Positions 14,489 to 32,769 of a DNA stretch of 64,000 bases are shown piece after piece. The position numbers and the translations under genes are program-made. How positions within the stretch are numbered: position 1 is the first letter of the stretch; each line of letters begins with the position of its first letter. The stretch comes from Actinomycetota bacterium (GTDB lineage Bacteria > Actinomycetota > Actinomycetes > Actinomycetales > Microbacteriaceae). Below the pieces are notes generated by a model. The model made no database searches. It was not told the origin of the DNA and was given only the letters and a program-made list of their open reading frames with translations. The stretch lies in the NCBI GenBank assembly GCA_020161315.1, contig JAIUOH010000003.1:47335-111334 (forward strand), given 5' to 3'.

Positions 14489-14578
14489 GCACTTTGCTCA
14501 CTTTGAGCCGTCCCTGACCTTTTGTCGGTGGCACCCCATATCCTGATCCACTGCCCAAAATCCGGAAGGAGGAACCAG

Positions 14579-15199: not shown

Positions 15200-15795
15200 T
15201 GCCCCATGAACTTTCCCGCCAGGAGGAGCATCTGTTCGCGGTGCTCAGCGGCGAGCGCTTCCTGAAGATGGAGGGCTTGTCGAACGAGGTCCCATTCTTC
15301 ATCTACCCCTACGAGCCGGAGCACGCGCTCGATGTGGCGAAGGCGAAGAAGCGGGTCAAGAACCGCCTGGCCGGCAAGGGCATCGAGGTGCGCGAGATCA
15401 ACCTCTACGATCTGTCTGTCGACGTCATCAAGCAGCGCGGCGACTGGGACGAGGTGCTTGAGGTTGAGCTCGAATTGGACAAGGCCGAGTTCACGGAGAT
15501 GCTGCAGTCGATGCTCAACCCGCAGCAGCACCTGGCTCCTGTGATCCGAGAACTGCTTGCAGACGGTGAGTTCGACATCGTGTTCCTGACCGGGATCGGC
15601 GAGGTCTTCCCCTATATCCGGTCTCACAACGTGCTCAACAACTTGCAGAGCGTTGTGGTGGGCCGGCCGATGCTCATGTTCTTCCCTGGCCGCTACGAGC
15701 AGTCCAACACGCTCGGCTCATCGCTGGTGCTGTTCGGCAGGTTGAAGGACGACCAGTACTACCGCGCCAAGAACATTCTGGAACAGGAACCGTGA
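15196..15795 (+). CDS. brxB: BrxB (DUF1788), BREX type 1
   Basis: 199 residues, full length. Characteristic stretches: GERFLKMEGLSNEVPFFIYPY at the N-terminus (partly shown), LAGKGIEVREINLYDLSVD, FLTGIGEVFPYIRSHNVLNNL, and a C-terminal RPMLMFFPGRYEQ. BrxB is required for BREX-1 defence and associates with the BrxC/PglZ/PglX machinery. The GTG start at 15196 overlaps the brxA stop; ATG at 15199 is an alternative. It overlaps brxC by GTGA. Confidence 0.92.
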   Translation: MMPHELSRQEEHLFAVLSGERFLKMEGLSNEVPFFIYPYEPEHALDVAKAKKRVKNRLAGKGIEVREINLYDLSVDVIKQRGDWDEVLEVELELDKAEFTEMLQSMLNPQQHLAPVIRELLADGEFDIVFLTGIGEVFPYIRSHNVLNNLQSVVVGRPMLMFFPGRYEQSNTLGSSLVLFGRLKDDQYYRAKNILEQEP

Positions 15796-18700
15796 CCGTT
15801 ATGCAGCTCACCGAGATTTTCGCTAAGGATGTCCAGCGGCCCATCGAGGGCGTCATCAAGGCCGACGACGTCGCACACCTTGGCACCGAGGTCGACGAGT
15901 ACGTCCTGACCAACGAGGCCGCCAAGGGGCTGGAGTTGCTGCTTGAGGCGTACACGGATTACACCAACGCAAACGGCGTGTGGATTTCGGGCTTCTTCGG
16001 CTCCGGTAAGTCGCACCTGTTGAAGATGCTCGCGCATCTTCTCGGCGATGTGGAGGGCGACGACTTCCCCCGCGAGCCTGTGTCGGAGAGCTTCCGTGCC
16101 AAGGCGACCGATGCGTTCTTGCCACCACTACTCGACAAGGCCGACCGCATCCCGGCGAGGAGCCTGTTGTTCAACATCGACCAGAAGGCGACTCTGATCA
16201 GCAAGGATCAGACCGACGCCCTGCTACGCGTGTTCGTGAAGGTCTTCGACGAGTCCCGCGGCTACTACGGCGACCAAGGTCACATCGCCCGCTTCGAGCG
16301 GCAGCTCGACGACGAGGGCCAGCTCGACGCCTTCAAAGACGCCTTCTTAGCGGTGTCGGGCCGGGACTGGGTGGAGCGTCGGCCGAGCTTCGGGCTTCCG
16401 ACCGTGCGTGGCCAGGTCAACGAGGCATACGCACAGATCAACGGGTTGGACGCGACTACCGCGCCCGACATCCTGAAGACCTATCAGGACACCTATTCGG
16501 TGTCGATCGAGGACTTCGCCGACGAGGTGCGGGCCTGGCTGGACAAGCAGCCTGCCGGCTACCGGCTCAACTTCTTCGTCGATGAGGTCGGGCAGTTCAT
16601 CGGCTCCAACACGCACCTGATGCTGAACCTTCAGACGATCGCCGAGTCGCTGAACACGAAGTGCGGCGGGCGGGCCTGGGTGTTCGTGACCTCGCAGGAG
16701 GACATGGACAAGGTCGTCGGCGACCGCACCAAGCAGCAGGGCAACGACTTCTCGAAGATTCAAGCGCGGTTCAAGACCCGTGTGAAACTCACTTCCGCCG
16801 ACGTGGAAGAGGTCATCCGCAAGCGCCTGCTGGAGAAGAACGACAAGGGCACTCAGGTGCTCGACGCGGTCTATGCGCAGGAGTCAGCGAACTTCAAGAC
16901 ACTGTTCGACTTCGTTGATGGCGCCAAGACCTACCGAAACTTCACCGACGAAGCCCACTTCGTCGGCACCTACCCGTTCGTGAGCTATCAGTTCCCGCTG
17001 TTCCAGGCCGCGATCGAAGGCATCTCCGACCACAACGTGTTCGAGGGCCGCAACAGCTCCGTCGGTGAACGCTCCATGCTCGGGGTTGTCCAGCAGGTCG
17101 CCAAGGACATCGGCAATGTCGAGGTCGGGTCGCTGGCGACCTTCGACGCGATGTTCGCTGGCATTCGCGCATCGTTGAAGTCCGCAGCACAGCGCTCGAT
17201 CGACCGCGCCGAACGTGACCTCCCCGACAGCGGCTCACCGGTCACCAAGCTCGCGGTGCGGCTACTCAAGGCGCTCTTCCTGGTCAAGTACGTCGAGAGC
17301 TTCCACGCCACCCCGCGCAACCTGACCGTGCTGGTCTACGACCGATTCGGGCTCGATCTGCCAGCGTTATCCAAGCAGGTCCAGGAAGCGCTGACGCTGC
17401 TGGAGACACAGACCTATGTGCAGCGCAACGGCAACGTCTACGAGTACCTGACGAACGAAGAGCAGGTGATTGAGGAGGAGATCAAGAACGTCGAGATCGA
17501 CTCCTCCGAGGTCTCCACCCGGCTGAACAAGATTCTGTCCGGCGATGTCGTCAAGACCTCGAAGCTCCGCTACGCCAAGAACGGGCAGGACTTCCCGTTC
17601 GGGTACAAGCTCGACGACCAGGCATTCGGCCAGCAGCGCGAGCTCTCGCTGCACTTCATCACTCCCGAGTACCCGTACGGTCCAGAAGAGATTCGGATGC
17701 ACTCGGCAGGCAAGGACGAGCTTCGTGTGGTCCTCGCGCCTGATGACCGGCTGCTGGCCGACCTACGGCTGCTGATCAAGACCGAAAAGTACACCAAACG
17801 CAAGCAGACCAGTTCGCTGTCACCTGTCGAGGAGCAGATTCTGCGGGCCAAGGCGACTCAGAACGCTCAGCGTGAGAAGGAACTTGTCGAGCGCATCCGA
17901 CGGGCTGCGGGACGAGCCGACCTCGTGATCAATGCCGCAGACGTCACAGTGGCGTCGCAGGATGCGGTCACGCGAATCACCGACGGATTCCAAGACCTCA
18001 TCGCCCGGACCTACACCCAACTGAGCCTCCTTGACGGGCGCATCTACTCCGAACAGCAGATTGCCGGGTTCGCGAACCCCGACCAGCCCACGTTGTTGGA
18101 CGGCACCGCGATCAACGACGCCTCGATCCATGCGCTCGCAGCGCCGGCAGACGAAGTGCTGTCGTACCTGCTCCAGCGTGACCGGCTCGGCGAGCAGGTC
18201 ACCGTCAAGAAGATCGTCGAACACTTCCAGGCCAAGCCTTACGGCTGGGATCTGGCCTCTATCGAATGCGTCACAGCCTGGCTCGTCGGCACCTCGAAGA
18301 TCACCCTCACTGTCGACTCGAATATCCTCAAGCGCAGCGAAGTCGCCTCCGCACTGCGCAACACACAGAAGCACTCCCACACCGTCGTCGCCCCACAGAA
18401 GACCTTCGACCAACGAAAGATTGCGGCACTGCGTGCGTTCTGCACGGACTTCTTCGACGAACCTGCTGTGCCGAAAGACCCGCTCGAACTTGCCCGGCAC
18501 ACCAGCGAACGCCTCCGGGCAAAATGCGAGGAACTCAAGGCGCGAGTCAGCGGCTCAAAGTACCCATTCGTGATTCAGCTCGAAGCGCCGATCGTGCTGC
18601 TGGAGTCCGTCGTTGGCAAACCCGACGACTGGTACCTGACTGACTTCGCGATCGCCGACGATCTGCTCGATGTGAAGAGCGACCTCATCGACCCCATTCA

Positions 18701-19352
18701 GGCCTTCTTCGGGGACGAGAAGCAGCCGGGCGCTCAGCGCAAGATTTACGACGAGGCAACCGAACTGCTCGCCGACAACGCGAACAACCTGAACTACCTT
18801 CCCTCCGGCAGCAACCAGGAAGTGGCGCAGCTCCTCGCCGACACACACGCCTTCCGCGGTAACCGGATGACCAAGCTCAAGGCCGCCACCGTCGAACTCC
18901 AAGCCCGCATCGACGAGACGCTCGCGGCAAACCGCGACGGTGCACTCCTAGAGATCGACTCCCGATGGGCACCACTCCAGACCAGCACGATCTATCTGGA
19001 AGCAACCGACGAGGCGCAGCACAGTGTGAGTCAGAAGGTCAGCTCGATCTTGGACCGGATCGGACGAGAGAGCCAGATCGCTGTTGTCCGCGAGATCGCG
19101 AACACCTTCGAAGAGCGCACGTACCCAACAATCCTCGACCAGCTCGCCGTCTCTCCCCGCAACACCGACGCGGAGGGTGGCGGTGAGCCCGCCCCAGCAC
19201 AGGCCAAGAAGCAGACTGTCTCAGTCAAGAACATCAACGCTCAAGGAGTCCACGGTGTGCTGGAGACCGAGGAGGACGTCGATCGCTATCTCGACGCGCT
19301 GCGCATGGCTCTGATACAGGCCCTCAACGACGACAAGCGCATCGCGCTGTAG
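15792..19352 (+). CDS. brxC: BrxC (PglY-like P-loop ATPase), BREX type 1
   Basis: 1186 residues, normal size. Starts IFAKDVQRPIEGVIKADD, with Walker A GFFGSGKSHLLK at about residues 66-77; a Walker B-like segment is YRLNFFVDEVGQF. A long helical C-terminal half follows. BrxC is the large ATPase thought to couple recognition to modification and exclusion. GTG at 15792 overlaps the brxB stop; ATG at 15801 is possible. No lesions visible. Confidence 0.95.
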   Translation: MTVMQLTEIFAKDVQRPIEGVIKADDVAHLGTEVDEYVLTNEAAKGLELLLEAYTDYTNANGVWISGFFGSGKSHLLKMLAHLLGDVEGDDFPREPVSESFRAKATDAFLPPLLDKADRIPARSLLFNIDQKATLISKDQTDALLRVFVKVFDESRGYYGDQGHIARFERQLDDEGQLDAFKDAFLAVSGRDWVERRPSFGLPTVRGQVNEAYAQINGLDATTAPDILKTYQDTYSVSIEDFADEVRAWLDKQPAGYRLNFFVDEVGQFIGSNTHLMLNLQTIAESLNTKCGGRAWVFVTSQEDMDKVVGDRTKQQGNDFSKIQARFKTRVKLTSADVEEVIRKRLLEKNDKGTQVLDAVYAQESANFKTLFDFVDGAKTYRNFTDEAHFVGTYPFVSYQFPLFQAAIEGISDHNVFEGRNSSVGERSMLGVVQQVAKDIGNVEVGSLATFDAMFAGIRASLKSAAQRSIDRAERDLPDSGSPVTKLAVRLLKALFLVKYVESFHATPRNLTVLVYDRFGLDLPALSKQVQEALTLLETQTYVQRNGNVYEYLTNEEQVIEEEIKNVEIDSSEVSTRLNKILSGDVVKTSKLRYAKNGQDFPFGYKLDDQAFGQQRELSLHFITPEYPYGPEEIRMHSAGKDELRVVLAPDDRLLADLRLLIKTEKYTKRKQTSSLSPVEEQILRAKATQNAQREKELVERIRRAAGRADLVINAADVTVASQDAVTRITDGFQDLIARTYTQLSLLDGRIYSEQQIAGFANPDQPTLLDGTAINDASIHALAAPADEVLSYLLQRDRLGEQVTVKKIVEHFQAKPYGWDLASIECVTAWLVGTSKITLTVDSNILKRSEVASALRNTQKHSHTVVAPQKTFDQRKIAALRAFCTDFFDEPAVPKDPLELARHTSERLRAKCEELKARVSGSKYPFVIQLEAPIVLLESVVGKPDDWYLTDFAIADDLLDVKSDLIDPIQAFFGDEKQPGAQRKIYDEATELLADNANNLNYLPSGSNQEVAQLLADTHAFRGNRMTKLKAATVELQARIDETLAANRDGALLEIDSRWAPLQTSTIYLEATDEAQHSVSQKVSSILDRIGRESQIAVVREIANTFEERTYPTILDQLAVSPRNTDAEGGGEPAPAQAKKQTVSVKNINAQGVHGVLETEEDVDRYLDALRMALIQALNDDKRIAL

Positions 19353-19364
19353 GAGACAACACGC

Positions 19365-22040
19365 ATGGAAACCTCACCGCTGAAGAGCTTCGGCACGTGG
19401 GCCAGACGCGAGCTCATCACTCAGGTCAGCGCCCGACTGACCGCCGTTCTCGCACCAGCATCGCCGGAGCGAGTCGAGAACCAGCGCGCCGTGACCATGC
19501 TCGAACGCGACATCGCTGCCGGCGGCGGCGGAGCCAAAGGCAAGGATGCTGTGGCCGACAAAGTCGCCTACACCTGGTTCAACCGCATCATCGCCCTCCG
19601 CTTCATGGACGCCAACGGGTACACAAGTGCTGGCGTGGTCTCGCCAGCCCACGGCCAGCAGACCGGACAGCCAGAGATACTCGCAGATGCCAAGCGTGGC
19701 AGCATCGACCCCGCTGTTGTCAGCAACAAGCGCACACTCGATGCCATCACTGAACTCCTCGACGGAACCCGCCCCAGTGCAGACGCCCAGGGTGAGGCCT
19801 ACACCCTGCTACTCGCCGAGTACTGCCGCTACTGGAACCGCTCAATGCCGTTTATGTTCGAGCGTGAGGGTGACTACACTGAACTCCTCATCCCCGCCAA
19901 CCTGCTCGCTGACGACTCCGTCCTCAGCCGCTCTGTCCAGCTGCTCACTGAGGATGTGTGCCAGAACGTCGAGGTCATCGGTTGGCTCTATCAGTTCTAC
20001 ATCTCCGAGCGGAAAGACGAAGTCTTCGCCGGATTCAAGAAGAATAAGAAGGCCGGCGCCGATGAGATCCCCGCCGCTACCCAGCTCTTCACCCCGCACT
20101 GGATCGTCCGCTACCTTGTTGAGAACTCCATCGGTCGTCTTTGGATGCTCAACCATCCGTTGTCTCGCCTCGCCGAGCAGATGGACTACTACATCGAGCC
20201 GGTCGATGAAGAATCCGACTTCCTCAAGGTCGCCAGTCCTAAGGAACTCACTGTCATCGACCCGGCCTGCGGCTCGGGCCACATGCTTACCTACGCCTTC
20301 GATCTTCTCTACGCGATCTACGAGGAAGAAGGCTATGCACCGTCAGAGATCCCGAGCTTGATTCTCACCCATAATCTGCACGGCACCGAGATCGATCCGC
20401 GTGCCGGTGCTCTCGCCGCGTTCGCTTTGACTATGAAAGCGGCTGCTAAACGCAAGCTGTTCTTGAAGGTGCCTGTAGAGCCGAGAGTCTCCGTGATCGC
20501 ACCGATTTCATTCAGCCAGGAGGAACTGGACGACCTCTGGACTTTTTGGGGTGGAGAAGATGCCAGCGACCCGCGATTGTCTGTCGAAGCGAAACGCCAC
20601 TACGAACATGAGCGGTTGGGTTTCGACTGCTATTGGAGAACATTCGAGCACGCTGACACGTTTGGGTCCTTAATTCAGCCGAACCAGGAGATGACCGAAG
20701 CCGCCGTTGAGATGTTCACCGCCACGAATTTGGGCAATGACTCCATCTGGACTCAGGCAACAGTCGCAAAGGCTCGAAGAGTGGTACAACAAGCAGTGCC
20801 TTTGCAGCGAGACTATGCAGTCGTAGTCGCGAACCCGCCGTACATGGGCAGCAAGCAGATGAACGCCCTGCTTTCACAGTTCATGAAGGACGAGTACCCC
20901 AATTCCAAGTCCGACCTGTTCGCTGCCTTCATCGAACGCTGCACCAACCTCGCCGGGGCGCGAGGAACCGTAGCAATGATCACTATGCAATCCTGGATGT
21001 TTCTCAGCTCGTATGAGAGACTCCGCGCGTCGCTTCTTACCAAGCAGCGCATCACCTCGATGCTGCATCTCGGTGCTCGAGCTTTCGACTCGGTCGGGGG
21101 CGAAGTCGTCTCCTCCACCGCCTTCGTCTTGGTGAACATGTCGCCAGAGGGACTCGGTGCTACCAGCAAGCTCGGTGGTACCTTCATCCGCCTCGTCGAT
21201 GGAACCTCCGAGGCCGAGAAGCTGGCCGCGCTGAGCACTGCCCTTAAGGTGCGGACCAAGGAAGCGGGCCTCCATTTCGCGTCGGACACAGACTTCGCGG
21301 CGATCCCTGGCTCGCCGATCGTCTACTGGCTCAGTGAAAAGATGCGGGCGGCGTTCAAGACGGGAAGGCCGCTTGGCGACATCGCCGAGCCAAACCAAGG
21401 GCTAATCACGGCCGATAACGACCGGTTCCTGAGACAGTGGTGGGAAGTCTCACGGAATCGCACCGGACTGAGTTGCCAGGCCAGGGCGGAGGCCTCTGAG
21501 ACGCGCCGACGTTGGTTCCCCTACAACAAGGGTGGCGACTTCCGTCGGTGGTATGGCAACCAGGAGTACGTCGTGAACTGGGAGCGTGACGGTGCTGAGA
21601 TCAAGGCGTTTGGGACCGATGACGGAGGTAGGGCACGCTCTCGACCCCAGAACGTCGACTACTATTTCAAACCAACGGTCTCGTGGTCCGACATATCATC
21701 AGGAGCGCCCTCCTTCCGGAGGTTCCCCTTGGGATTCATCCATGGCAACAAGGGCAACTCCGTCTTCGGGTCAGACATGCTCCTCGACCGCCTTCTGGGG
21801 GTAATGAATGCCCCATGTGTAACGATGATCCTGGAGGCACTTACTCCCACGATGACGGCTTCGGTCGGCGACGTCGCCAAGACTCCTATCCCCGGCGCGC
21901 TGGCAGACCTGCCGACTTCAGGTATCGAAGCGCTGGTGGCGACGGCGCAGTCCGACTGGGATGACTCCGAAGCATCGTGGAACTTCAGTTCGAGTCCACT
22001 CGTGGCGGCCGCTCAGATGTCGCGCTCTGGAACGTCCTGA
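19365..22040 (+). CDS. pglX: PglX, N-terminal methyltransferase plus current recognition segment (C-terminal third missing)
   Basis: BREX adenine-N6 methyltransferase, here 891 residues against about 1200 normally. SAM-binding motif DPACGSGH begins at residue 299 and catalytic NPPY is at 490-493. The segment after QFMKDEYP (from 505) is the variable recognition part. It stops 48 bp beyond DWDDSEASWNF, where related proteins run on into the C-terminal domain; that domain is encoded separately at 24680-25675. A 25-bp inverted repeat lies just after NPPY (20875-20899) and a 69-bp one further in (21291-21359), both mirrored in the inverted cassette downstream. I infer that this is one of several switchable forms. 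Confidence 0.9.
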   Translation: METSPLKSFGTWARRELITQVSARLTAVLAPASPERVENQRAVTMLERDIAAGGGGAKGKDAVADKVAYTWFNRIIALRFMDANGYTSAGVVSPAHGQQTGQPEILADAKRGSIDPAVVSNKRTLDAITELLDGTRPSADAQGEAYTLLLAEYCRYWNRSMPFMFEREGDYTELLIPANLLADDSVLSRSVQLLTEDVCQNVEVIGWLYQFYISERKDEVFAGFKKNKKAGADEIPAATQLFTPHWIVRYLVENSIGRLWMLNHPLSRLAEQMDYYIEPVDEESDFLKVASPKELTVIDPACGSGHMLTYAFDLLYAIYEEEGYAPSEIPSLILTHNLHGTEIDPRAGALAAFALTMKAAAKRKLFLKVPVEPRVSVIAPISFSQEELDDLWTFWGGEDASDPRLSVEAKRHYEHERLGFDCYWRTFEHADTFGSLIQPNQEMTEAAVEMFTATNLGNDSIWTQATVAKARRVVQQAVPLQRDYAVVVANPPYMGSKQMNALLSQFMKDEYPNSKSDLFAAFIERCTNLAGARGTVAMITMQSWMFLSSYERLRASLLTKQRITSMLHLGARAFDSVGGEVVSSTAFVLVNMSPEGLGATSKLGGTFIRLVDGTSEAEKLAALSTALKVRTKEAGLHFASDTDFAAIPGSPIVYWLSEKMRAAFKTGRPLGDIAEPNQGLITADNDRFLRQWWEVSRNRTGLSCQARAEASETRRRWFPYNKGGDFRRWYGNQEYVVNWERDGAEIKAFGTDDGGRARSRPQNVDYYFKPTVSWSDISSGAPSFRRFPLGFIHGNKGNSVFGSDMLLDRLLGVMNAPCVTMILEALTPTMTASVGDVAKTPIPGALADLPTSGIEALVATAQSDWDDSEASWNFSSSPLVAAAQMSRSGTS
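20875..20899 (+). repeat. inverted repeat IR1, active copy
   Basis: 25 bp encoding the end of a Ser codon plus QFMKDEYP, identical in inverted orientation to 23066-23090. It marks the border between constant methyltransferase core and variable segment. Confidence 0.9.
21291..21359 (+). repeat. inverted repeat IR2, active copy
   Basis: 69 bp encoding DFAAIPGSPIVYWLSEKMRA and the next three residues; 68 of 69 bases match the inverted copy at 22642-22710, while sequence on both sides is diverged. Confidence 0.9.
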
Positions 22041-22641
22041 TCAGAGGGTTCTTGGTGAAGCTCCAGGCTGTCTCAAACGAGTTCCAGTCGTCACGCGAGA
22101 CAGAGACCATGCGGTCGACCCCATGCGAGATCTCATGTGACCCGACTGGTTCAGGGGGCATAGGAAGCGCTCTGACGTCACGCAACTGGAGATGAAATGT
22201 CGAGTTCAGGATCCGGAACACGTCAGTGGCGAATGCCGAATTCAGGATGCCTAGAACGCTGCTGTAGTCGTTTGAGTAGGCGAGATAAGCAACGGGGCCC
22301 GACATGTCAAAGGTTCCCCCGGCGGGCATCCAGCGAAAACTTGAGCCGCCCGAGGTGATGTCCGTCCACGTGATTCCTGGCAAGTACCAGAACTGGGGGT
22401 CTGTTATTCGGCATGCAGCATTTAGCCGGTAGTGGCTTCGCGCGGCCTCGGACCAGTCGACGAGGTGGTCAATGTTTCCGAACCATCTTCGAAATGGACC
22501 TCCCTTTGCGTAGGGAATCCAGCGTGCCTGGTGCCCAGCCAGTGACCTTGATACCTCCCAGCCATACCGGAGGTAGCGGTCGTTGTCAGCCGTCTTGTGC
22601 TGTCCCTCGGTGATAACTAGGGAGTCCAGTCGATCGGAGAC

Positions 22642-22710
22642 CTTGAACGCAGCCCGCATCTTTTCACTGAGCCAGTAGACGATCGGCGAGCCAGGGATCG
22701 CCGCGAAGTC
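22642..22710 (-). repeat. inverted repeat IR2, silent copy
   Basis: 69 bp, 68/69 identical to 21291-21359 in opposite orientation. Confidence 0.9.
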
Positions 22711-23065
22711 AGACTGTGCTATCTCGAAGCGGTTGTAATCGCGGTCAAGGAAAAGTGCCTCGATGGTGGCCACGGAGCGGACGTCAACATGTTGCTCGAA
22801 CAGACGCCGGTAGACGGCCCGGCCACCGTCACCCTTGGCGTTGGCCACGACGAACGCGACTGAGCCGAAGTCCGACCCGAAGACACCTCGCCCCAGGTGA
22901 ACCATCGAGGCGATCCGCTGGGTCAGCAGAAGGTCGTGGCGCATGTTTTCGAACGACTTGAGCGACATCCATGACGGGAGGTTGATCATTCCCCACGTCC
23001 CACCGGGCTTCGTCAGAACCTCGGCCTTGAGCATGAACGCCGTCATGAGGTCGGCCTTGCCGGTC

Positions 23066-23090
23066 GGGTACTCGTCCTTCATGAACTGTG
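23066..23090 (-). repeat. inverted repeat IR1, silent copy
   Basis: 25 bp, identical to 20875-20899 in opposite orientation. Confidence 0.9.
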
Positions 23091-23204
23091 TTGTGGTCGT
23101 TGACAGTCGTCGGCGGTGTGAGCGTACAGGGCCTTCCATCGGCTGATGCGTGGGCACCGTAGATGTTGAGGTTTCTTTCTCCTGCTTCCGGCAGCCCAAG
23201 GCAG

Positions 23205-23338
23205 ATGGCTACCCCAATGGCTACCCGTGTGAACCTAACGAATGGCTTGATTGTTGCCCTGAACAGCGCTCGGCAGTGTGTGGAAGGCAACGGCGCAACG
23301 ACACTGGGAACGGCTGAAGGCTATCCCGATGGCTACCC
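23205..23338 (+). repeat. paired 12-bp direct repeats upstream of the recombinase
   Basis: ATGGCTACCC occurs at 23205-23214, 23217-23226 and 23329-23338. A variant (GGCTATCCC, 23319-23327) precedes the last one, so there are two tandem pairs with 12-bp period about 112 bp apart. They are candidate recombinase arm-binding sites. Otherwise 23091-23387 holds no gene. Confidence 0.55.
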
Positions 23339-23387
23339 ATGCGGTCACATGCCGATTGTGTGACTCCCGATAGTGTGATCTGGAACG

Positions 23388-24683
23388 ATGGTACAGAAAC
23401 AGCGCAGTAAAGGATCCGGGTCGATCTATCAGAACTCTCGCGGTCAGTGGGTAGCGGCGATCGAGGTCGGCTGGACAGAACGAGGTACGCGTCGTCGCCT
23501 CACGCTTAAAGCGCGGACGAAGGCTGAAGTCCGTGAGAGGCTCGCTGTGGCCCAGCGGCGGATTGTGTCGGAGGGGACGGTAACGTCGTTTGCCACCATC
23601 ACGATCAAACGGTGGGCTGGGCTTTGGCTCGCGCAACGACAGCAGAGCGTGCGGCCCGGCACTTACGTCTCTGATCGCTCAGCAGTCAACCGCTGGATCG
23701 TCCCGACGCTTGGTCATATCCGGCTCGATGCCTTGGCTCCTGCTGATGTGCGAAAAGTAGCATCAACGCAGGAAGCCGCCGGGTTGGCCCTCCCCACGAT
23801 GCAGCGTACTCATGCAGTGCTCGGCAAGATACTCGCAGACGCCGTCGCCGAGGGATACCAGGTTTCTCAGCGTGCCCGCGAAACAAGCGGGCCCGGTGTC
23901 GGTCCTTCTTCGCGGCAGGCGCTCAGCCCCGAGAATGCGATGCGGATCCTCGCTGCCATTGCAGAGCGCTCTGACGTCTCCCGTTGGGTGGCCGCGCTCG
24001 TGGCAGGGTTGCGCCCTGCTGAGGCGCTTGGCCTCACCTGGGACATGGTTGATCTGGACGCAGCGACCATGACTCTCGCGTGGCAGCTTAAGGCACTCCC
24101 GTACGTGGAACGACGAGACCCAACAAGCGGCTTTCGTGTGCCGCGGGGCTTCGAATCGCGACATCTCATTGGAGCCTACCACCTTGTCCGCCCGAAGACG
24201 CGTGCCGGAATCCGTGTCGTCCCGATCGTTCCGTGGCTCGCCGAGGCGCTCGCTGCCTGGCAGTCAGCTGCGCCGCCATCCTCCTACGACTTGGTATGGC
24301 CGCGTGACGATGGTGCCCCACGCTCGGCGGAATTTGACCGTGCGCAGTGGTACGAGATCGTTGACAACGCGGGCGTTGCCGTTGCACTTCCGGGCGGCGA
24401 AACACGCCGTCCGCTGCTCTACGAGGCGCGACATACTGCGGCGACCCTGCTGCTCGCCGGAGGTATCGACGACACGACGATCAAAGCGGTGCTCGGGCAC
24501 TCATCTGTGTTGAGCACACAGGCATATCTCCATACCGATCACACGCGGACCCGGGCGGCCCTCACAGCTTCAGCGGAGATGATTGGACTTGGCCGATATC
24601 CTGGGAGGAATACATTGGCTTCCTTGCCGCCTGCGCCCGGGGCGTCGGGGCTCGCGGGCGGCCGAACCCCGGCATCACAGTGA
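23388..24683 (+). CDS. tyrosine recombinase inside the BREX operon
   Basis: 431 residues. N-terminal arm-binding-like domain (GSGSIYQNSRGQWVAAIEVG), SAM-like core-binding domain (WAGLWLAQRQQSVRPGTY), catalytic domain with Arg in GLRPAEALGLTWDMVD, EARHTAATLLL, VLGHSS and the tyrosine in TQAYLHT. All catalytic positions appear intact, unlike the integrase at 10361. It lies next to the inverted pglX cassette and its stop overlaps the start of the PglX C-terminal gene by GTGA. Two roles are possible: inverting the pglX segments, or having once integrated a cassette-bearing element into pglX. Substrate sites are unproven. Confidence 0.88.
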   Translation: MVQKQRSKGSGSIYQNSRGQWVAAIEVGWTERGTRRRLTLKARTKAEVRERLAVAQRRIVSEGTVTSFATITIKRWAGLWLAQRQQSVRPGTYVSDRSAVNRWIVPTLGHIRLDALAPADVRKVASTQEAAGLALPTMQRTHAVLGKILADAVAEGYQVSQRARETSGPGVGPSSRQALSPENAMRILAAIAERSDVSRWVAALVAGLRPAEALGLTWDMVDLDAATMTLAWQLKALPYVERRDPTSGFRVPRGFESRHLIGAYHLVRPKTRAGIRVVPIVPWLAEALAAWQSAAPPSSYDLVWPRDDGAPRSAEFDRAQWYEIVDNAGVAVALPGGETRRPLLYEARHTAATLLLAGGIDDTTIKAVLGHSSVLSTQAYLHTDHTRTRAALTASAEMIGLGRYPGRNTLASLPPAPGASGLAGGRTPASQ

Positions 24684-25675
24684 GGCACCTAGTGAAGACG
24701 CTTGAGCAGACCGTTGCACAGCATCGCGACGAATGGAAAGTACGCTCGCTCGAACAGCAGCGACTGGAGATTGAGAACAACGAGGCCGTCGCGAGGCTGT
24801 ATGGGCTTGAAGACGAGATTCCTTCGGATGTGCCGCTTGAACGCGTGTCTTTGACGAACAACTCGGCCTTCCGCTGGCCGAACAAGACACCCGAAGAGCG
24901 CGACGCCCTGTTCGCCCAGTCAGCCATCGTCGACCTTGTCTCCTATGCCGTCGGCTGCATGTTTGGCCGCTATAGCCTCGACGAGCCAGGTCTCATCCTT
25001 GGCGACCAAGGGTCCACCCTCAACGACTACCTTGCCAAGGTGCCGCACCCGACGTACATGCCAGACAAGGACAACGTCATCCCGATCGTCGACGGCGACT
25101 GGTTCGACGACGACGTCGTCGAGCGGGTTCGCCTGTTTCTCCGCACGGTGTTTGGGGAACAGCACTTCGAGGAGAATCTGCGGTTCGTGAACAACGCCCT
25201 AGGCGTAAGGGACCTACGTGACTACTTCATCAAGACAACAGGGCGCGGTGCGGCGTCAAAGTTTTATGACGACCACGTCCAGCGGTACAAGAAGCGACCG
25301 ATCTACTGGCTGTTCTCCAGCCCGAAGGGATCATTCAATGCGCTGATCTACATGCACCGCTACACGCCGTCCACGGTCTCAACGGTGCTGAACGAGTACC
25401 TGCGCGAGTTCGAGTCGAAGCTGGAGGCGAATCTCCAGCACCAGGAGCGTCTCGCCGCCGGGGATGGTACGCCTCGCGAGAAGGCAGCGGCGCTGAAGGA
25501 AACCGAGCGTCTCCGCAACGTGCTGTTGGAACTCAGCGAGTACGAACATGACGTGCTGTACCCACTGGCGTCTCAGCAGGTCGCCATCGACCTCGATGAT
25601 GGAGTGAAGGTCAACTATCCGAAGTTCTATCCGGCCCTCAGGAAGATCGCAGGGTTGGAGGCTACCGATGACTGA
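24680..25675 (+). CDS. pglX: separate C-terminal third of PglX
   Basis: 331 residues matching the C-terminal region of canonical PglX: the linker EQQRLEIENNEAVARLYGLEDEIP, then GCMFGRYSLDEPGLI, KKRPIYWLFSSPKGSFNALIY (partly shown), TVSTVLNEYLREFESKL and the terminal VAIDLDDGVKVNYPKFYPAL. It has no SAM or NPPY motif, so it needs the upstream protein. 890 + 331 residues equals the size of an ordinary PglX. It starts with GTG overlapping the recombinase stop, so its translation should be coupled to the recombinase. Whether the two parts assemble is inferred. Confidence 0.88.
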   Translation: MRHLVKTLEQTVAQHRDEWKVRSLEQQRLEIENNEAVARLYGLEDEIPSDVPLERVSLTNNSAFRWPNKTPEERDALFAQSAIVDLVSYAVGCMFGRYSLDEPGLILGDQGSTLNDYLAKVPHPTYMPDKDNVIPIVDGDWFDDDVVERVRLFLRTVFGEQHFEENLRFVNNALGVRDLRDYFIKTTGRGAASKFYDDHVQRYKKRPIYWLFSSPKGSFNALIYMHRYTPSTVSTVLNEYLREFESKLEANLQHQERLAAGDGTPREKAAALKETERLRNVLLELSEYEHDVLYPLASQQVAIDLDDGVKVNYPKFYPALRKIAGLEATDD

Positions 25676-25760
25676 GACCGATTTCCCCTCGGTAGGCGAG
25701 GAGACTGTCGTCTCGCCGGGACGAGTTTCTGTGGAGGCTGCCTATGTCTGGCGAGTTTGA
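25668..25760 (+). CDS. possible 30-codon coupling ORF
   Basis: ATG overlaps the preceding stop as ATGA and the frame ends inside the next gene's start. It may only carry ribosomes to the AlbA_2 gene. No family resemblance; weak. Confidence 0.2.
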   Translation: MTETDFPSVGEETVVSPGRVSVEAAYVWRV

Positions 25761-27225
25761 GCTGGACGAGCACGGCCGAGTGCGCGCGCGTGAAGGGAAG
25801 ACGCTGGAGTTTAAGCGTGACCTGTCCTCTCCCACGAAGCCATTGCGCACGATTGTCGCGTTCGCGAACTCCGCTGGTGGCCGTCTGGTCATCGGTGTAG
25901 ACGATGACGGCACGGTGGTCGGCGTGGCTGACCCCCTCGCTGAGGAGGAACGCATCACCAGCCTGATCGCGGATCGCATCTCGCCGCAGCTGGTTCCGGC
26001 CGTCGATCTCGTGACCGTTAGCGAAGCGACGATCCTCGTGGTGGATGTGCCGCTGAGCACCCGCCGTCCGCACTTCATGACCGGTCAGGGCGCGGAGCAC
26101 GGAATCTATGTTCGTCTGGGGTCGACGACGCGCCAAGCCGACCCCGCCCTGGTGTCAGAGCTTGAACGCAACGCGCGCGGCGTGGCATTCGAAGACCTGC
26201 CTGAGCCACTAGCCTCGCTGGATGATCTCGACCTGCAGGCGTTGTCGGAGCTGCGCGGGCGCAGAACCGATGTCGATGATCTCGTCGCGCTGGGGCTCGC
26301 CGTCAAGCAGGGAGGCGAGATCGTCCCGACGTATGCAGGCCTTCTCGCCGCGTGCCCCGAGCCCACCCGTTTCCTGCCCTCCGCATGGGTGCAGTGCGGC
26401 CGGTTGCGTGGTGCCAGCGGGACCGACATCTTCGATCAGACCGAGATTCACTGCTCGATGCCGCTCGCCGTGGATCGGGTCATGGAGTTCCTCCTGAAGC
26501 ACGCCTACAAGTCCGCGGTGTTCGGCGAGGTGCGTCGGCGGGATGCTTACTCGATCCCGGTTGAGGCGATCCGCGAGGTTGTCGTTAACGCTCTGGTGCA
26601 TGCCAGCTATGCCGAATGCGGGACACCCATCCGGGTCGCGTTCTACGACGATCGCATCCAGGTCGACAGCCCGGGCCTGCTCCTGCCGGGGATGACGGTG
26701 GAGTCGATGCGGCGCGCTTCTCGGCTGCGGAACCCTTCGCTCGCGCGCATCTTCCGTGAGGCCGGGATCATGGAGCAGTGGGGTACCGGTGTCCAGCGCG
26801 TCTACGACCAGATCGCTGCGGCGGGTCTTCCCGAGCCGGACGTCGAAGAGGTCATGGATCGGCTCCGGTTCACGATCTACGTGCCGTCCCATGCCCCGGA
26901 CGCGGGCCTTGGTGCCGGCGCTAAGCACCAAGATAAGGCACTAAGGCACCAAGATGAGGCACCAAGTCGGCCGGCAGCCCGCCTTTCGTCCACCGAGGTT
27001 GTAGTTCTTCGCCATGTCCGAGTCGATCCGGCGAGCCGCGCGGATCTCATGGCGGCGCTGGGCATCACCAACCAGACCCGCGCGTTCCGTCGACACATCG
27101 AGCCACTCCTTGACTCAGGGTTACTAGAGCGCACACTCCCTGACAAACCCACGAGTCGAGACCAGCGCTATCGGATCACGGAGCTCGGTCTCGCCGCGCT
27201 AGCTGGGCAGGAGGACGCCGAATGA
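25744..27225 (+). CDS. AlbA_2/Schlafen-type, RecG-like ATP-binding regulator
   Basis: 493 residues. N-terminal AlbA_2 domain (GKTLEFKRDLSSP, IVAFANSAGGRLVIGVDDDG, GIYVRLGSTTRQAD), a middle GHKL-like ATPase part (AIREVVVNALVHASY, YDDRIQVDSPGLLLPG, AGIMEQWGTGVQRVYDQI), then a winged-helix C-terminus (LRHVRVDPASRADLMAALGI). A short DNA repeat encodes the linker KHQDKALRHQDEAPS. Such proteins accompany some BREX and other defence operons as accessory or regulatory genes. It overlaps pglZ (ATGA), so it is a true operon member. Specific role unknown. Confidence 0.85.
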   Translation: MSGEFELDEHGRVRAREGKTLEFKRDLSSPTKPLRTIVAFANSAGGRLVIGVDDDGTVVGVADPLAEEERITSLIADRISPQLVPAVDLVTVSEATILVVDVPLSTRRPHFMTGQGAEHGIYVRLGSTTRQADPALVSELERNARGVAFEDLPEPLASLDDLDLQALSELRGRRTDVDDLVALGLAVKQGGEIVPTYAGLLAACPEPTRFLPSAWVQCGRLRGASGTDIFDQTEIHCSMPLAVDRVMEFLLKHAYKSAVFGEVRRRDAYSIPVEAIREVVVNALVHASYAECGTPIRVAFYDDRIQVDSPGLLLPGMTVESMRRASRLRNPSLARIFREAGIMEQWGTGVQRVYDQIAAAGLPEPDVEEVMDRLRFTIYVPSHAPDAGLGAGAKHQDKALRHQDEAPSRPAARLSSTEVVVLRHVRVDPASRADLMAALGITNQTRAFRRHIEPLLDSGLLERTLPDKPTSRDQRYRITELGLAALAGQEDAE

Positions 27226-29717
27226 GTTCGCTCAGCGCTGTCCTGCCTCACCTGGAGCGGAGGTTCGATTCACAGCGCCTGGTCTTCTGGCACGACGCCG
27301 ACGGTGAATACGCCGGCGAGCTTGACGCGCTTGGCCTCAGCGGCGTGACCACCGTACGCGTGGAGAACAACGAATATGCCGTGAAGAACCGCGTGCTCCG
27401 CGACGAGCCGGCGGGCAAGTTTCTCCTGTACCGAGGCGCTCCTGTGCCTCCGGGCACTGGCAACTGGCTACTCGATCTTGAGCTGGCCTACGGAGTCTTC
27501 ACTGCTGACCGAACCGCGCTTGTGAGCCAAGACCTCGGTCTCAGCGGTAGCGGGATCGACGATGTGGTGCGGGAGCATGAAAAGTTCTTCCGTGCTGCCA
27601 AGCGAGTCCAGAGCCTCAAGGCGCTCCTCGCGACCGGCGATGACGCCGACAGGTTGCAAGCGAAGATGTCGGCGGTGGTGCTTGGTCAGCACGAGCACAG
27701 CATGCTTGAGCTCACACGCGCGTTGCTGATCGAGAATGCGCAGGGCGCGCACACGAAGTACGCCGCGCTGGCCGAGCAGAGCCTCGACGGTTTCCACTGG
27801 GCCGGTGTTGCCAAGATTTACGGCTATGAAGCAAGTGAGCCCAGCGTCGATGACTTCGTGCTGTGGATGTTCCGCCACGCGGTCAACGGGTTTGCGTCGG
27901 ACTCGCCCGGGGCCCTGCGCAACATCCAGCTCGACTTCGCGAGCCTACGCAACGACCGACGCAGCGCCGATGCGCTCGCCACGTTGGCTCGGCGCGCAGC
28001 GGAGAGCCTCGACTACGCCAGCAGCATCGAGAATGCCGAACTGCATGAACTTGTGGGCAACGATCTCTTTGAGTACGTGGAACGCAAGATCATCAGCGTG
28101 CTGACGCAGGCAGTCGTCGAGCGAACAATGAGCGCACGCGAGGTGTCCGAGATCATCCGTGCCCGTCAAAGCAGCATCTGGGTTGATGGATACCGGGAAC
28201 TCTACGCGGCGCTTGCCGCTGCCTCTGACCTACTGGGTGATCTCGCGACTGCGAGGATCGAGATCGCGTCGTTCGATGAGGGACTCGACCGGTACCGCAA
28301 GCACTGGTTCCGCATCGACCAGCTCTACCGGCAGTTCCACTTTGCCGCCCGCACAACGGAGTACGCCGGCCCTCTCGAAGCACTCCGGGGCGAGGTAGAG
28401 AAGCGCTACGCGAACCGATACCTCTACGAGCTAGGCAACGCCTGGCAGCAACAGGTTGATGCCGTGACGGAGTGGCAATCGGTTGCCTTGCGCCCGCAAA
28501 CGAGGTTCTTCGCCGATCACGTTGAGCCCATCATTAGGAAGGGCAACCGGAAGGCCGTGGTCATCATCTCCGATGCGCTGCGTTACGAGGTCGCCGAAGA
28601 ATTGGGTTCACGTATCCGGCAGGAAGACCGTTTTGACGCGGAGCTCGACGCGATGCTCGGTGTGCTGCCGAGCTACACCCAACTCGGCATGGCGGCACTG
28701 CTTCCGCACAAGACGCTGGCCCACTCGCACGATGGAGACCCGGTGCTCGTGGACGGCCAGCGTTCCGACGGGACAGCGAACCGCAACAAGGTACTGGCTT
28801 CGGTGGACGGGTTCGCGATCCAGGCCGAGGACGTTCTCGCGATGCCGCGTGGCGAGCTGCGCGAGCTCTACGGCGCGCACCAAGTGCTGTACGTATACCA
28901 CGACCGGATCGACGCGGCAGGCGACAAGGCCCGCACCGAACGTCAGGTGTTCGAGGCCGCCAACGACGCACTGCGCGAACTGGTCGACCTGATCAAGCGA
29001 CTGACGAACGCGAACGCCACGAACATCCTGGTGACTGCTGACCACGGCTTCCTCTACCAGGACACCGCGCTCGCCGACGCCTCCTACCTCTCGACTAAGC
29101 CGCAGGGCGACGAGCTCGTCGTGACGAACCGTCGATACGTGCTCGGCCGGGGACTCAGGGATGACCCCGCGTTCCGGAAGTTCGAGCCTGAACAGCTCGC
29201 GCTGAGCAGCGACCTTGAGGTGCAGCTTCCCAAGTCGATCCATCGACTCAAGCTGCCGGGAGCGGGCTCCCGCTTCGTCCACGGCGGCGCCGCACTCCAG
29301 GAAGTCGTCGTGCCTGTACTTACCGTCAACAAGAAGCGCAAGAGCGACACTCGGCCCGTCAACGTCGAGGTACTGCCTGAGACGGACAAGATCACCACGG
29401 GCCAGCTCGTCGTGAAGCTCTTCCAGTCCGAGCCGGTCGGCGAAAAGATCCAGGCTCGCACGCTACGGGCTGGCCTCTACGTCGGCGAGACCCTGATCTC
29501 GAACCAGCCCGAGCTGCTCTTCGACCAGCCTTCCGACGACAAGCGCGACCGCTACCAGAGTGCACGGATGCTCCTTAGCAAGGACGCCAACGAGTTTAAT
29601 AACCGCACGGTCGAGTTCCGGCTCGAAGAGCAGATACCCAACACCACCCAGTGGCGCGTCTACCAGCGGGCTCAGTACCTGCTCAAACGCTCGTTCACAT
29701 CGGACTTCGATTTCTAG
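27222..29717 (+). CDS. pglZ: PglZ, alkaline-phosphatase-fold protein of BREX type 1
   Basis: 831 residues, full length for BREX-1 PglZ. N-terminal HLERRFDSQRLVFWHDADGEY; the phosphatase-like core has AVVIISDALRYEVAEELGSRI (first metal motif), a middle GELRELYGAHQVLYVYHDRID, and NILVTADHGFLYQ (second metal motif). The ATG overlaps the previous stop. PglZ is essential to BREX, and its active site is thought to act as a nuclease/phosphatase regulated by PglX/BrxC. Confidence 0.95.
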   Translation: MSSLSAVLPHLERRFDSQRLVFWHDADGEYAGELDALGLSGVTTVRVENNEYAVKNRVLRDEPAGKFLLYRGAPVPPGTGNWLLDLELAYGVFTADRTALVSQDLGLSGSGIDDVVREHEKFFRAAKRVQSLKALLATGDDADRLQAKMSAVVLGQHEHSMLELTRALLIENAQGAHTKYAALAEQSLDGFHWAGVAKIYGYEASEPSVDDFVLWMFRHAVNGFASDSPGALRNIQLDFASLRNDRRSADALATLARRAAESLDYASSIENAELHELVGNDLFEYVERKIISVLTQAVVERTMSAREVSEIIRARQSSIWVDGYRELYAALAAASDLLGDLATARIEIASFDEGLDRYRKHWFRIDQLYRQFHFAARTTEYAGPLEALRGEVEKRYANRYLYELGNAWQQQVDAVTEWQSVALRPQTRFFADHVEPIIRKGNRKAVVIISDALRYEVAEELGSRIRQEDRFDAELDAMLGVLPSYTQLGMAALLPHKTLAHSHDGDPVLVDGQRSDGTANRNKVLASVDGFAIQAEDVLAMPRGELRELYGAHQVLYVYHDRIDAAGDKARTERQVFEAANDALRELVDLIKRLTNANATNILVTADHGFLYQDTALADASYLSTKPQGDELVVTNRRYVLGRGLRDDPAFRKFEPEQLALSSDLEVQLPKSIHRLKLPGAGSRFVHGGAALQEVVVPVLTVNKKRKSDTRPVNVEVLPETDKITTGQLVVKLFQSEPVGEKIQARTLRAGLYVGETLISNQPELLFDQPSDDKRDRYQSARMLLSKDANEFNNRTVEFRLEEQIPNTTQWRVYQRAQYLLKRSFTSDFDF

Positions 29718-29720
29718 GAG

Positions 29721-32700
29721 ATGAGCGTGACAAACTTCACGATTGAAGACCTTGCAATGGCCTATCGCAAGGCAAAGGTTGACATCTTCTACTCATCGAA
29801 TGCACGTAGGATCGATCTTCTTGCCTACGAATCGGATCTTGAAAGGAATCTCCATCGATTACTCGATCGACTCGACTCCGACGACGAAAACTGGCTCACG
29901 AGCCACGAGTTCCTTGGAGGCGCCTACCTTGTGCCCAAGAGCGCTGCCGCACGGGGCCAACGATATGCAGGTGGGGCTACTGATGATACTGTGACGGACC
30001 GTTGGTCCGACTCTCTGCAAGATTGGCAGAAGGCGACGTCTTCCACACGCACGGCCGAGCTGTCCTTTAGAGTCATGGCGAAGTGCAGTATCGACTTTCA
30101 TGTGCTTTCTTCGTTATGGATCATGAAAGTGGGATCCAAGTTTGAAGCGATGCTGCCGGAGTCTGCGCGGGGCAACCGATTGCGTCGGACCGCAAAGCAG
30201 GAGTTCAATCTTTGGGCCTCGGGAAGCTTCGGACCCTATCTTCAGCCGTACCGAAACTGGCGCGATGAAGGCCTCGAAGCTGCTCGCAATGCGCTAGGCG
30301 GAAAGCAAAACGTCGTGGTCATTACCACCGACATTGCATCCTACTACCACAGCATTGATCCAAGATTTCTGCTGCAGCCAGATTATCGAGCTCTCCTGGG
30401 CATAGATTTGGATGCTGGCGAGGAACTCCTCCATAAGCGGTTCGTTGACGCACTGATCCATTGGCCGGAAGCCGCACGTGCGGCACTCGGGTTCATAGTT
30501 GAAGGGCTGCCTGTCGGTCTTCCTGCTTCAGGGGTCGTAGCCAACCTCGCGCTTATTGAACTCGACCGACTTATAGAAGCAGAGGTAAGACCGCTCTATT
30601 ACGGGCGATACGTTGATGACATCATTCTCATCATGAGAGACGGACCCCAAGGGGTTGATGGATCCGATCCTTGGCTTTGGCTCCATGCCCGACTCGACGG
30701 TATGTTGGCTATGGCTGCGTCTGTCAAGAGAATTGAAAGATCTTACCTACAAGGTTCATGTATTGAGTTATCCCGGCAAAAGACCAAGGTTTTTCACCTG
30801 TCAGGTAGCTCTGGTCTCGCGCTGATTGGCTCGATAGAGGCCGCGATTCAAGAGCGTTCAAGCGAGTGGCGGTCTTTGCCCTCAATACCGGACGAGCCTT
30901 CTCAGATCTCTGTTGACATTGCTCAAGTTTTTCAGTCCGACGGCGAGCGTGCTGACTCGTTTAGAGGTGCGGACTTGATGACTGCTCGGCGCTCGGCATT
31001 TGCACTTCGACTACGGGACTACGAAGCCTATGCATCAGACCTCGAATCCTCGACGTGGTCCGAACTCCGTTGGAGTTTCTTTGACGCAGTCCTCGACTAC
31101 GTTGTCAGCTTGCCAGGATACTTCGAGCTTGCGCAGTACGTGCCGCGAGTGCTTCGGATGGCCGTCGCCTGTCAAGACTACGAGTATGTCGAAAGGATCC
31201 TGAAGCAGCTGACGGAAGTGCGTGATGAGATCAAGAACGCGAAGAGTGTCAAGGTGCAAGGCGCTCGAAAGGACAATCTTTCGGCAGCCCGAGTTGCAAA
31301 TAGTTGGGCGAAGCAGGTAGCCGATCAATTCGGTGAAGACCTCGCTGCCGCAGCGTTCGTGGCTCCCGCGCCCGGAGACTTGCAGAAGATACGTGATGCA
31401 GCAGCTACCTTATCGCCGAGCCCAGCGATCGCTCGAAGCGTAGAAGACCTTGGGGCCCTCTTTCAGAGTCTATTCATGTCCGATCTCGCGCAGCTGCCGT
31501 TCCGCTCGAGATACATGAGTGATGCTGAGATGAATCTCGAGGACTTTTCGCTCGCTGATGAACCTTCGGAGCTTGCGGCGATGCTCGGGCAGGGTCTTCA
31601 GACACATCTGCGTGCTTTAGTTGAACTCCTCGGGCGCTATCCGTCCTCGCGACGTAGAGATGAAGTTGGAATTCCCAGCGCCTTCGCCTTTGCAACACGT
31701 CCATTCGGCCTTTTCGATCTGTTTCTCTTAGCGCAACCATTCCACGGTGATTGGGAGCGCTACGGCTCCGATCTCCGGTTAATCGAGAGCGCCATACTTG
31801 CGCTTCGGGGTTATGACGTCAATGGCTTGCTGCCCAAGACTCCCAGGGAGGATTTCCTGAGGAACGAGCTCGTATTGTCGCGAGAGATTCTTGGCAGACG
31901 TAAGAGAGTAGCGCTGGGTATGATCAAAACTTCTGGTAGCGCATGGGCCGCTGCCGTAAATGGCACCCCAGATCGTAGTCACACCAGGTACAAGGCTCTA
32001 AATGACACATTGAGCGATGTCCTGAGATCGCCTCGAAGCGTTGATTACCTCGTTCTGCCGGAGCTTTCTGTGCCTGCGCCTTGGTTTCGGCGATACGCGT
32101 ATAAACTCCGCACTCTGAATGTCGGATTCATCGCCGGTGTGGAGTACCTCCATGCTGAAAGAAATATCGTTCGGAACCAGGTTTGGGCTTCACTCCCGAT
32201 TTCAAGTGGTGAATTTCCAGTCACTTTCTTGCACCGGCAGGACAAGCAAAAGGCTGCTTTCCACGAACGAGAAAAGCTGTATCAGGTGGCCGGAAAAACG
32301 CTCGTTCCCGAAGTGGAATGGGACGAGGTTCCTGTCATCCATCACGAGGGGTTCACCTTCGCCTTGCTTGTGTGTAGCGAACTAACGAATATCGAGTACC
32401 GATCGCAGTTGCGTGGACGGGTCGATGCCCTTGTTTCTCCCGCGTGGAACCGCGACTTGACCACTTTTAGTGCGCTTGTCGAATCCGCTGCCCTCGACAT
32501 GCATGCATATGTCTTCGTCGCCAACGATCGTGCGTACGGGGACTCTCGCGTTCGCGCGCCGATGCGAGAGGAATGGCGGCGAGACCTGCTCCGTGTTCGG
32601 GGAGGGGTTGAGAACTACGTGGTCATGACTGACCTTGATATTCCAGCGCTTCGGGCACACCACAATTCTCACTCCCCGGATAGTGACATGTTCAAACCTT

Positions 32701-32765: not shown

Positions 32766-32769
32766 AACC

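Follow-up and report, generated by a model that had tools for sequence, protein, structure and literature searches.

BREX type 1 systems methylate a 6-bp non-palindromic motif and exclude unmethylated phage, and changing their specificity is risky because the same motif both marks the whole chromosome and rejects phages. How might a lineage exchange one BREX specificity for another? The question is raised by a BREX-1 locus of an Actinomycetota bacterium of the Microbacteriaceae (assembly GCA_020161315.1, 3.01 Mb in 74 contigs), lying in the 64,000-nt stretch of contig JAIUOH010000003.1 that was analysed (hereafter the window, to which coordinates refer unless another locus is named). Here the methyltransferase gene pglX is in two pieces, with a tyrosine integrase gene between them and a second, inverted cassette of its specificity part. 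A shufflon is a set of several alternative segments permuted by one recombinase, and we read this locus as a BREX-1 pglX specificity shufflon, driven by the integrase and built on a split PglX, a reading to which we give a probability of about 0.82. What is observed is the anatomy, its conservation, the open frames of four forms and, across species, both orientations and reassorted halves.

The split pglX gene and its two cassettes

The constant first piece, PglX-N (19365..20874, + strand), encodes the N-terminal domain and the first part of the methyltransferase to just past the NPPY motif, and with the active specificity cassette forms one open reading frame (ORF) of 891 amino acids spanning 19365-22040, residues 6-884 of which match positions 1-903 of the BREX-1 PglX model NF033452. 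The constant C-terminal piece, PglX-C, is a separate ORF (24692..25675, +) matching positions 905-1208 of that model (8e-109), the split omitting one model position; its start is a GTG, with an alternative GTG possible at 24680, and in relatives a TTG or GTG start stands before KTLEQ (or similar) with purine-rich sequence upstream. The first piece aligns to the solved E. coli BrxX and Salmonella PglX up to residues 870 and 887 respectively, and the second from residues 895 and 935, its own first residues being unaligned. BrxX is described as an N-terminal domain (1-210), a methyltransferase domain (211-650), a target recognition domain (TRD, 651-837) and a C-terminal domain (838-1205), with hinge loops at 638-675 (PMC11842806), and by this map together with the alignments the switched segment begins just past NPPY, takes in the TRD and ends in the first part of the C-terminal domain.

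The active cassette, TRD1 (20875..22040, +, stop at 22040), has a type A proximal half (types are defined below) and a distal half of its own. The silent cassette, TRD2 (21985..23090, − strand), has a type C proximal half and likewise its own distal half, matches the PglX models, is open from the first repeat through to its stop at 21985 and overlaps the active cassette by 56 bp at its tail. The original prediction had described two nested inverted repeats shared by these cassettes with diverged sequence between and beyond them, and this description held in each part. The first repeat, IR1, is 25 bp long, stands right after NPPY and is identical (25/25) at 20875..20899 (+) and 23066..23090 (−); a repeat search lengthens it to an arm of 58 nt at 79%, and with 3 mismatches allowed the whole assembly contains just these two copies, a reversed control pattern giving 0 matches. 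The second, IR2 (69 nt, 68/69), occupies 21291..21359 (+) and 22642..22710 (−) and encodes IPGSPIVYWLSEKM, which the BrxX domain map and alignments place at the hinge between methyltransferase domain and TRD. BLASTN of the window's active against its silent cassette found no shared stretch beyond IR1 and IR2. Chance repeats were considered as an explanation and set aside.

Up to four proteins had been foreseen from inversion at the two repeats, and the PglX-N frame is open in all four arrangements in silico (891 aa as assembled, 871 after inversion at IR1, 883 at IR2 and 879 at both), while 23091-25675, holding the integrase and PglX-C, is left untouched. We propose that the constant half-enzyme would read into whichever cassette stands upright, the other lying head-down and tail to tail with it such that each would end at its own stop, and that PglX-C would be translated independently, starting at a codon of its own 3' of the integrase gene, to give a separate polypeptide joining PglX-N non-covalently. 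The integrase, apparently phage-derived, would bind paired arm sites and recombine the two IR1 cores; exchange at IR2 would swap the recognition domain alone; and two proximal by two distal halves would give four PglX versions, probably with four methylation and phage-target specificities. From the sequence we infer that the integrase would bind and catalyse, that switching would be live, that the two polypeptides would assemble and that the methylated motif would change.

Recurrence of the module and the history of its cassettes

Scanning contigs with the integrase gave 15 loci, among which 12 show 70-83% identity, and a profile search across the window's family (398 genomes) gave six matches, namely the window, L043 and L045 again, and the new L074, L075 and L077 (L numbers denote loci and G numbers genomes), making 16 distinct loci in all (the window, 12 from the integrase scan and three from the family search). 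The integrase adjoins PglX-C in 16/16, and the complete order of PglX-N, cassette, inverted cassette, integrase and PglX-C was found in ten (the window, L042, L043, L044, L046, L047, L048, L049, L074 and L075); L041, L045, L050, L051 and L077 are cut by contig ends and L052 is decayed. The constant part of PglX-N is 61-91% identical among eight loci. Hosts, by record, include Pseudoclavibacter, Luteimicrobium, Gordonia, Microbacterium, Speluncibacter, Ancrocorticia and Schaalia, with Pseudoclavibacter soli DSM 23366 and Luteimicrobium subarcticum DSM 22413 among the carriers, and L042, labelled Fimbriimonadaceae, looks like a mis-binned contig.

A PglX-C search of 297 genomes of the order found a match in 14, the source genome included, and at 11 of the 15 other places the match lay within a single open frame of 1161-1249 aa, against frames of 722, 736, 771 and 227 aa (the last at a contig start) at the other four. 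That pglX is in pieces here and mostly in one frame there, together with the decay of L052 and a frameshift in the active cassette of L049, might mean that an integrase element was inserted into pglX and split it, leaving inert relics. We think this very unlikely, as the same break is found in 16 loci with mostly open frames and with the PglX-C start codon at one place. Differences at codon positions 1, 2 and 3 are 0.17/0.13/0.48 for PglX-C (28 pairs) and 0.18/0.12/0.56 for the integrase (55 pairs), and both sequences look selected, with third-position change far above that at the first and second.

The integrase itself (23388..24683, +, 431 aa; PF00589 3.4e-13, PF14659 6.4e-8) has a SAM-like domain and catalytic residues R209, R348, H371 and Y380, invariant in 12/12. 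pglX might just happen to be where an ordinary prophage or island integrase attaches, in which case the inverted cassette would be incidental, and relatives outside the module do live elsewhere: integrases of at most 50% identity had a pglX match within 1.5 kb in 0 of 20 places (18 other genomes), and 16 relatives on viral contigs are 25-49% identical. We find this scarcely credible, since every integrase found at 70% identity or above is in the BREX module and the core sites, which stand in inverted orientation, enclose no phage cargo. From the distant relatives lying away from pglX and the viral ones, the module integrase looks like a domesticated phage enzyme. Searching plasmids with the integrase gave 27 records, none reaching 60% identity. 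Separately, in L062 a 96-nt inverted repeat at 98% (9097-9192 and 10920-11015 of that locus) surrounds a 411-aa ORF without a Pfam match, just downstream of a 36%-identical integrase relative, and is the only such pair among the repeats listed for seven regions with distant integrases.

The state of the cassettes bears on whether the switch would change specificity or merely turn the enzyme off. The active cassette of L074 changes frame shortly after the hinge core described below (~11460-11492 of that locus), a sequencing error or a real off state, and in ten other silent cassettes, seven are open over 366-393 codons, those of L041 and L050 are at contig ends and that of L052 is frameshifted. 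An on/off phase switch with a non-functional alternative form would fit the frame changes in L049 (active), L052 (silent) and L074 (active); we regard it as improbable, for each window cassette has its full length, the two match a single PglX model up to one end point, 873, and seven of the ten other silent cassettes are open.

By identity the proximal halves form three types, A, B and C, at 66-92%, 69-86% and 74-76% within a type and 29-46% between types (those of L074, L075 and L077 were typed by their first residues), and the types occupy either position. L042, L044, L046, L047, L048 and L074 have an A/B pair with A active, and L043 has one with B active; for A/C, the active type is A in the window but C in L049; and the sole B/C pair, L075, has C active and B silent. 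The active A half of L047 and the silent A half of L049 are 92% alike, their constant parts being 91% alike. Grouping distal halves by whole-half identity (D1 and D2) was too weak, at 67-82% and 70-79% within and 58-68% between, and was blurred by a short piece in L052 that fits both, and distal-end types alpha and beta were instead defined just downstream of a further conserved core, S3. All 6/6 combinations of proximal and distal types are found in the 14 cassettes bearing S3 (A-alpha 5, A-beta 1, B-alpha 2, B-beta 4, C-alpha 1, C-beta 1). The window's own distal halves are unlike the others (TRD1 34-63%, TRD2 29-37%).

Core sites, putative arm sites and possible exchange at IR2

IR1 is the clearer of the two sites. 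The core in it, S1 (active copy 20871..20889, +, CTTTCA / CAGTTCA / TGAAGG), is in active copies CTTTCA-CAGTTCA-TGAAGG or near it, an inverted-repeat pair flanking 7 bp, and silent copies become identical to it abruptly at CACAG. The Leu codon CTT is kept in 10/10 active copies and the Ser codon TCA in 9/10 (L047 has Ala GCA), both being minority codons in the eight loci counted (CTT 6-21% of Leu, TCA 0-14% of Ser). CTTTCACAG was in 0 of 15 distinct unsplit pglX genes, the NPPY region being readable in 22 of 26 control loci.

Paired ATGGCTACCC repeats about 12 bp apart, two pairs to a locus, are present in 15/15 loci that include the region (L051 does not), and depending on the locus the pairs either precede the integrase together or flank it; in L043 one pair has a degenerate half, and in L074 the spacing of one pair is 11 bp. 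The window's copies of these putative integrase arm sites are at 23206..23226 (+, TGGCTACCC, 12-bp period) and 23318..23338 (+, same pattern), two matches against 0.02 expected, with no others in the genome at one mismatch or fewer. They lie beside the integrase and outside the invertible segment, and inversion would therefore be reversible without a directionality factor, each inversion rebuilding the same substrate. In L044 (~7461-7763) the spacer between silent cassette and integrase is longer and contains a 22-bp inverted repeat, like an inserted mobile element. Strands and a helix are predicted at integrase residues 13-62 (block pLDDT 67-82 in a model that is poor overall), no Pfam arm domain was matched even at E up to 10, and the best Foldseek matches, from the low-confidence model, are the Tn1549 and lambda integrases at TM ~0.2.

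Within IR2 lies a second core, S2 (21319..21346, +, TCGTCTACTGGCTCAGTGAAAAGATGCG), at the hinge. Its GTGAAA(A/G) is present in 22 of 23 cassettes (a set that excludes the early-cut cassette of L050), the exception in L077 running off the contig, and its codons AGT and GAA are kept in 20/20 in-frame cassettes, while AGT GAA was at the hinge in 0 of 10 distinct unsplit genes (hinge motif matched in 13 of 26 control loci). Between-locus identity falls from 0.89 in the core to 0.59 and 0.48 in its flanks, with borders chosen after viewing the alignment, and in a synonymous scan of 19 cassettes (of the 23, two frameshifted and two cut ones were omitted) over 120 conserved columns, the S2 AGT gave the strongest signal (19/19 against 1.7 expected, z 13.8). 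That the hinge ATG serves to start translation internally was considered as a cause of this conservation and dropped, the ATG being kept in only 16/20. That frame is kept at both repeats, as first suggested, agrees with the open frames; the reason then given, that the same residues are encoded, understates the case, as L012, an unsplit relative, uses TCG GAG for the same YWLSEKMR. IR2 is therefore more than shared protein sequence, given the kept AGT GAA and the reassortment of halves between species.

The third core, S3 (TACTTTTCACCGTCCGTGTCATGG), also stands out in the synonymous scan (codons 279-284); it is in 14/23 cassettes, with both copies in seven loci, and is absent from the window, L047 and L048 in the cassette scan. 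The 6-mer TTTCAC/GTGAAA is common to S1, S2 and S3, any common 6-mer arising in 9 of 3000 shuffles, and pairwise scores of S1-S3 and S2-S3 are weak (90 and 135 of 3000 shuffles as good). Variants are matched within a locus, with GGCTAAG in both S2 copies of L042 and CCGTCAG in both S3 copies of L049. The same single-base loss at the S2 core (TACTGG to TACGG) was seen near 5988 in L049 (active) and near 7441 in L052 (silent), both type C cassettes with proximal halves 74% identical; from the sequence it could be a strand-exchange scar or shared descent.

The main uncertainty is IR2, which could be a site-specific target, as IR2 and IR3 are for the pneumococcal PsrA considered below, or a place of homologous exchange. 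For the first, we suggest tentatively, at somewhat less than an even chance, that one domesticated integrase runs a multi-site actinobacterial BREX shufflon in which S1, S2 and S3 would be variants of one site, sharing the TTTCAC half-site with different 7-bp overlaps at or near PglX domain boundaries; methyltransferase lobe, recognition domain and distal part would be exchanged independently, and a two-polypeptide PglX would keep the C-terminal domain constant. If this is true there would be four forms in the source strain and up to eight elsewhere. For the second, which we rate as credible at somewhat less than even odds, the integrase would work on IR1 only, with IR2 and S3 as homology tracts for RecA-type recombination or gene conversion, combinatorial on evolutionary and not clonal time. 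Tracts beyond IR1 do differ in length (69 nt in the window, 181 in L044, 188 in L049 and 381 in L075), no arm sites adjoin S2, and the pairwise similarity of S1 and S2 is not significant. The L075 tract, a 100% block from S2 that ends at S3, requires gene conversion or duplication because inversion cannot duplicate, and on its sequence such conversion or duplication also happens. Conversion would homogenise within a locus and leaves unexplained a fixed 26-31 nt with minority synonymous codons across loci (flanks 0.48-0.64), as well as the 6-mer common to the three cores. For the combinatorial reading of the original prediction, the recurring layout and the conservation of both sites at DNA level give good support, as anatomy and evolutionary history.

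Several points weigh against the integrase-driven specificity shufflon. Tyrosine recombinases usually have an HxxR motif, and the integrase has Tyr at the His place (YxxR) in 12/12; AlphaFold predictions of PglX-C and the integrase are poor (pLDDT 52 and 61). Silent S1 copies are without the outer CTTTCA half-site, having AACAC in 9/14 and other bases elsewhere, S1-S2 pairwise similarity is no better than shuffled (1138 of 3000 as good), and codons 217-218, outside S2 and S3, also stand out in the synonymous scan (9/13 and 11/13). The L049 active cassette is frameshifted at the hinge and its PglX copy would be broken. Lastly, the evidence for both orientations consists of assembled sequences compared between species, and these could in part reflect horizontal exchange of cassettes.

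The BREX-1 operon and known systems

The assignment to a BREX-1 operon was confirmed, a type 1 set of brxA, brxB, brxC, pglX in two pieces, pglZ type A and brxL being found in one cluster, all on the + strand. BrxA (14522..15199, PADLOC BrxA 2.4e-73), BrxB (15196..15795, PADLOC BrxB 8.6e-66) and BrxC (15792..19352, PADLOC BrxC-PglY, E 0, 1658 bits) precede pglX; PglZ type A (27222..29717, TIGR02687 5.4e-229) and the BrxL ORF (32635..34896, PADLOC BrxL 1145.9 bits, homology from about residue 67) follow. Directly 3' of PglX-C and within the operon is a Schlafen/AlbA_2 accessory gene (25744..27225, +, PF04326 8.1e-25), with relatives 64-70% identical in L041, L043 and L077, only fragments in L050 and no match in the remaining module loci within the available DNA of each. 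Between pglZ and brxL (29721-32765) lies a reverse-transcriptase-like ORF of 1014 aa (RVT_1 1.4e-7) that matches NCBIfam Drt3a at 8.4e-13 but with 48 bits against a cut-off of 200, and upstream of brxA (13328-13888) is an ORF with weak MerR-type regulator matches, all below cut-off.

An invertible pglX in Lacticaseibacillus (Lactobacillus) rhamnosus was reportedly first described by Goldfarb et al. in 2015. Phase variation of pglX in other BREX loci, which the original prediction took as known, is indeed described for that species, with a full PglX of 1198 aa, a partial one of 743 aa and a site-specific integrase between them (PMC7513527), and a table for strain GG gives two pglX genes on opposite strands, of 3555 bp and 2223 bp (PMC6256098). 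Our locus is like it in having a silent inverted pglX part with shared repeats and a site-specific recombinase gene. In L. rhamnosus one full pglX is expressed and the integrase stands between the copies, whereas our locus has a constant, detached C-terminal domain that does not belong to the inverting segment, places its cassettes tail to tail with the integrase beyond them, and has in addition paired arm-like sites together with a second conserved core, at the hinge. Two lactobacillus plasmids (possibly L. rhamnosus-like) each have one pglX in the stretch viewed, and one of the two records has a second PglX-C-like place elsewhere. Separately, two other genomes of the order, G005 (L089, L090) and G164 (L091, L092), each have two pglX 3' parts on separate contigs, before pglZ and before brxL, and of the G005 copies one is complete while the other is a frame of 771 aa that begins near NPPY; these may be duplicates of the Lactobacillus type.

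At the pneumococcal cod/SpnIII hsdS locus, nested repeats of 15 bp (IR1), 298 bp (IR2) and 85 bp (IR3) are all acted on by one tyrosine recombinase, PsrA (CreX), IR1-like sequences being needed inside IR2 and IR3 (PMC7096588), and exchange independent of both CreX and RecA is also reported (PMC6620402). As judged from sequence, our locus shares nested inverted repeats, a tyrosine recombinase gene and active and silent specificity parts with it, and differs in that a BREX methyltransferase split in two takes the place of an unsplit Type I restriction-modification HsdS. On our favoured reading it would operate in the manner of this pneumococcal locus. The integrase resembles those of lambda and Tn1549 in its predicted N-terminal beta-sheet-helix segment, its SAM-like and catalytic domains and its direct-repeat arm-like sites beside the core, and is unlike them in being apparently dedicated to inversion inside one gene, with viral relatives of low identity only.

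We found no description of a split PglX with a constant separate C piece, arm-like sites and DNA-conserved internal cores in the literature searched, which left most subscription papers uncovered, and a word search of a 2026 BREX survey (PMC12839542) gave no recombinase, integrase, inversion, split or shuffling. Invertible pglX is known in Lactobacillus; the split-PglX layout described here is a new variant. The locus predicts a PglX that works as two polypeptides and yields a testable set of inversion sites, and natural in-frame exchange points in PglX would be useful to the laboratory work that is now re-engineering BREX specificity (PMC11341690, PMC11842806). For the lineage, a constant enzyme frame with swappable recognition parts suggests how specificity could be changed in one step, and the arrangement would let one cell line switch the DNA sequence that it treats as self.

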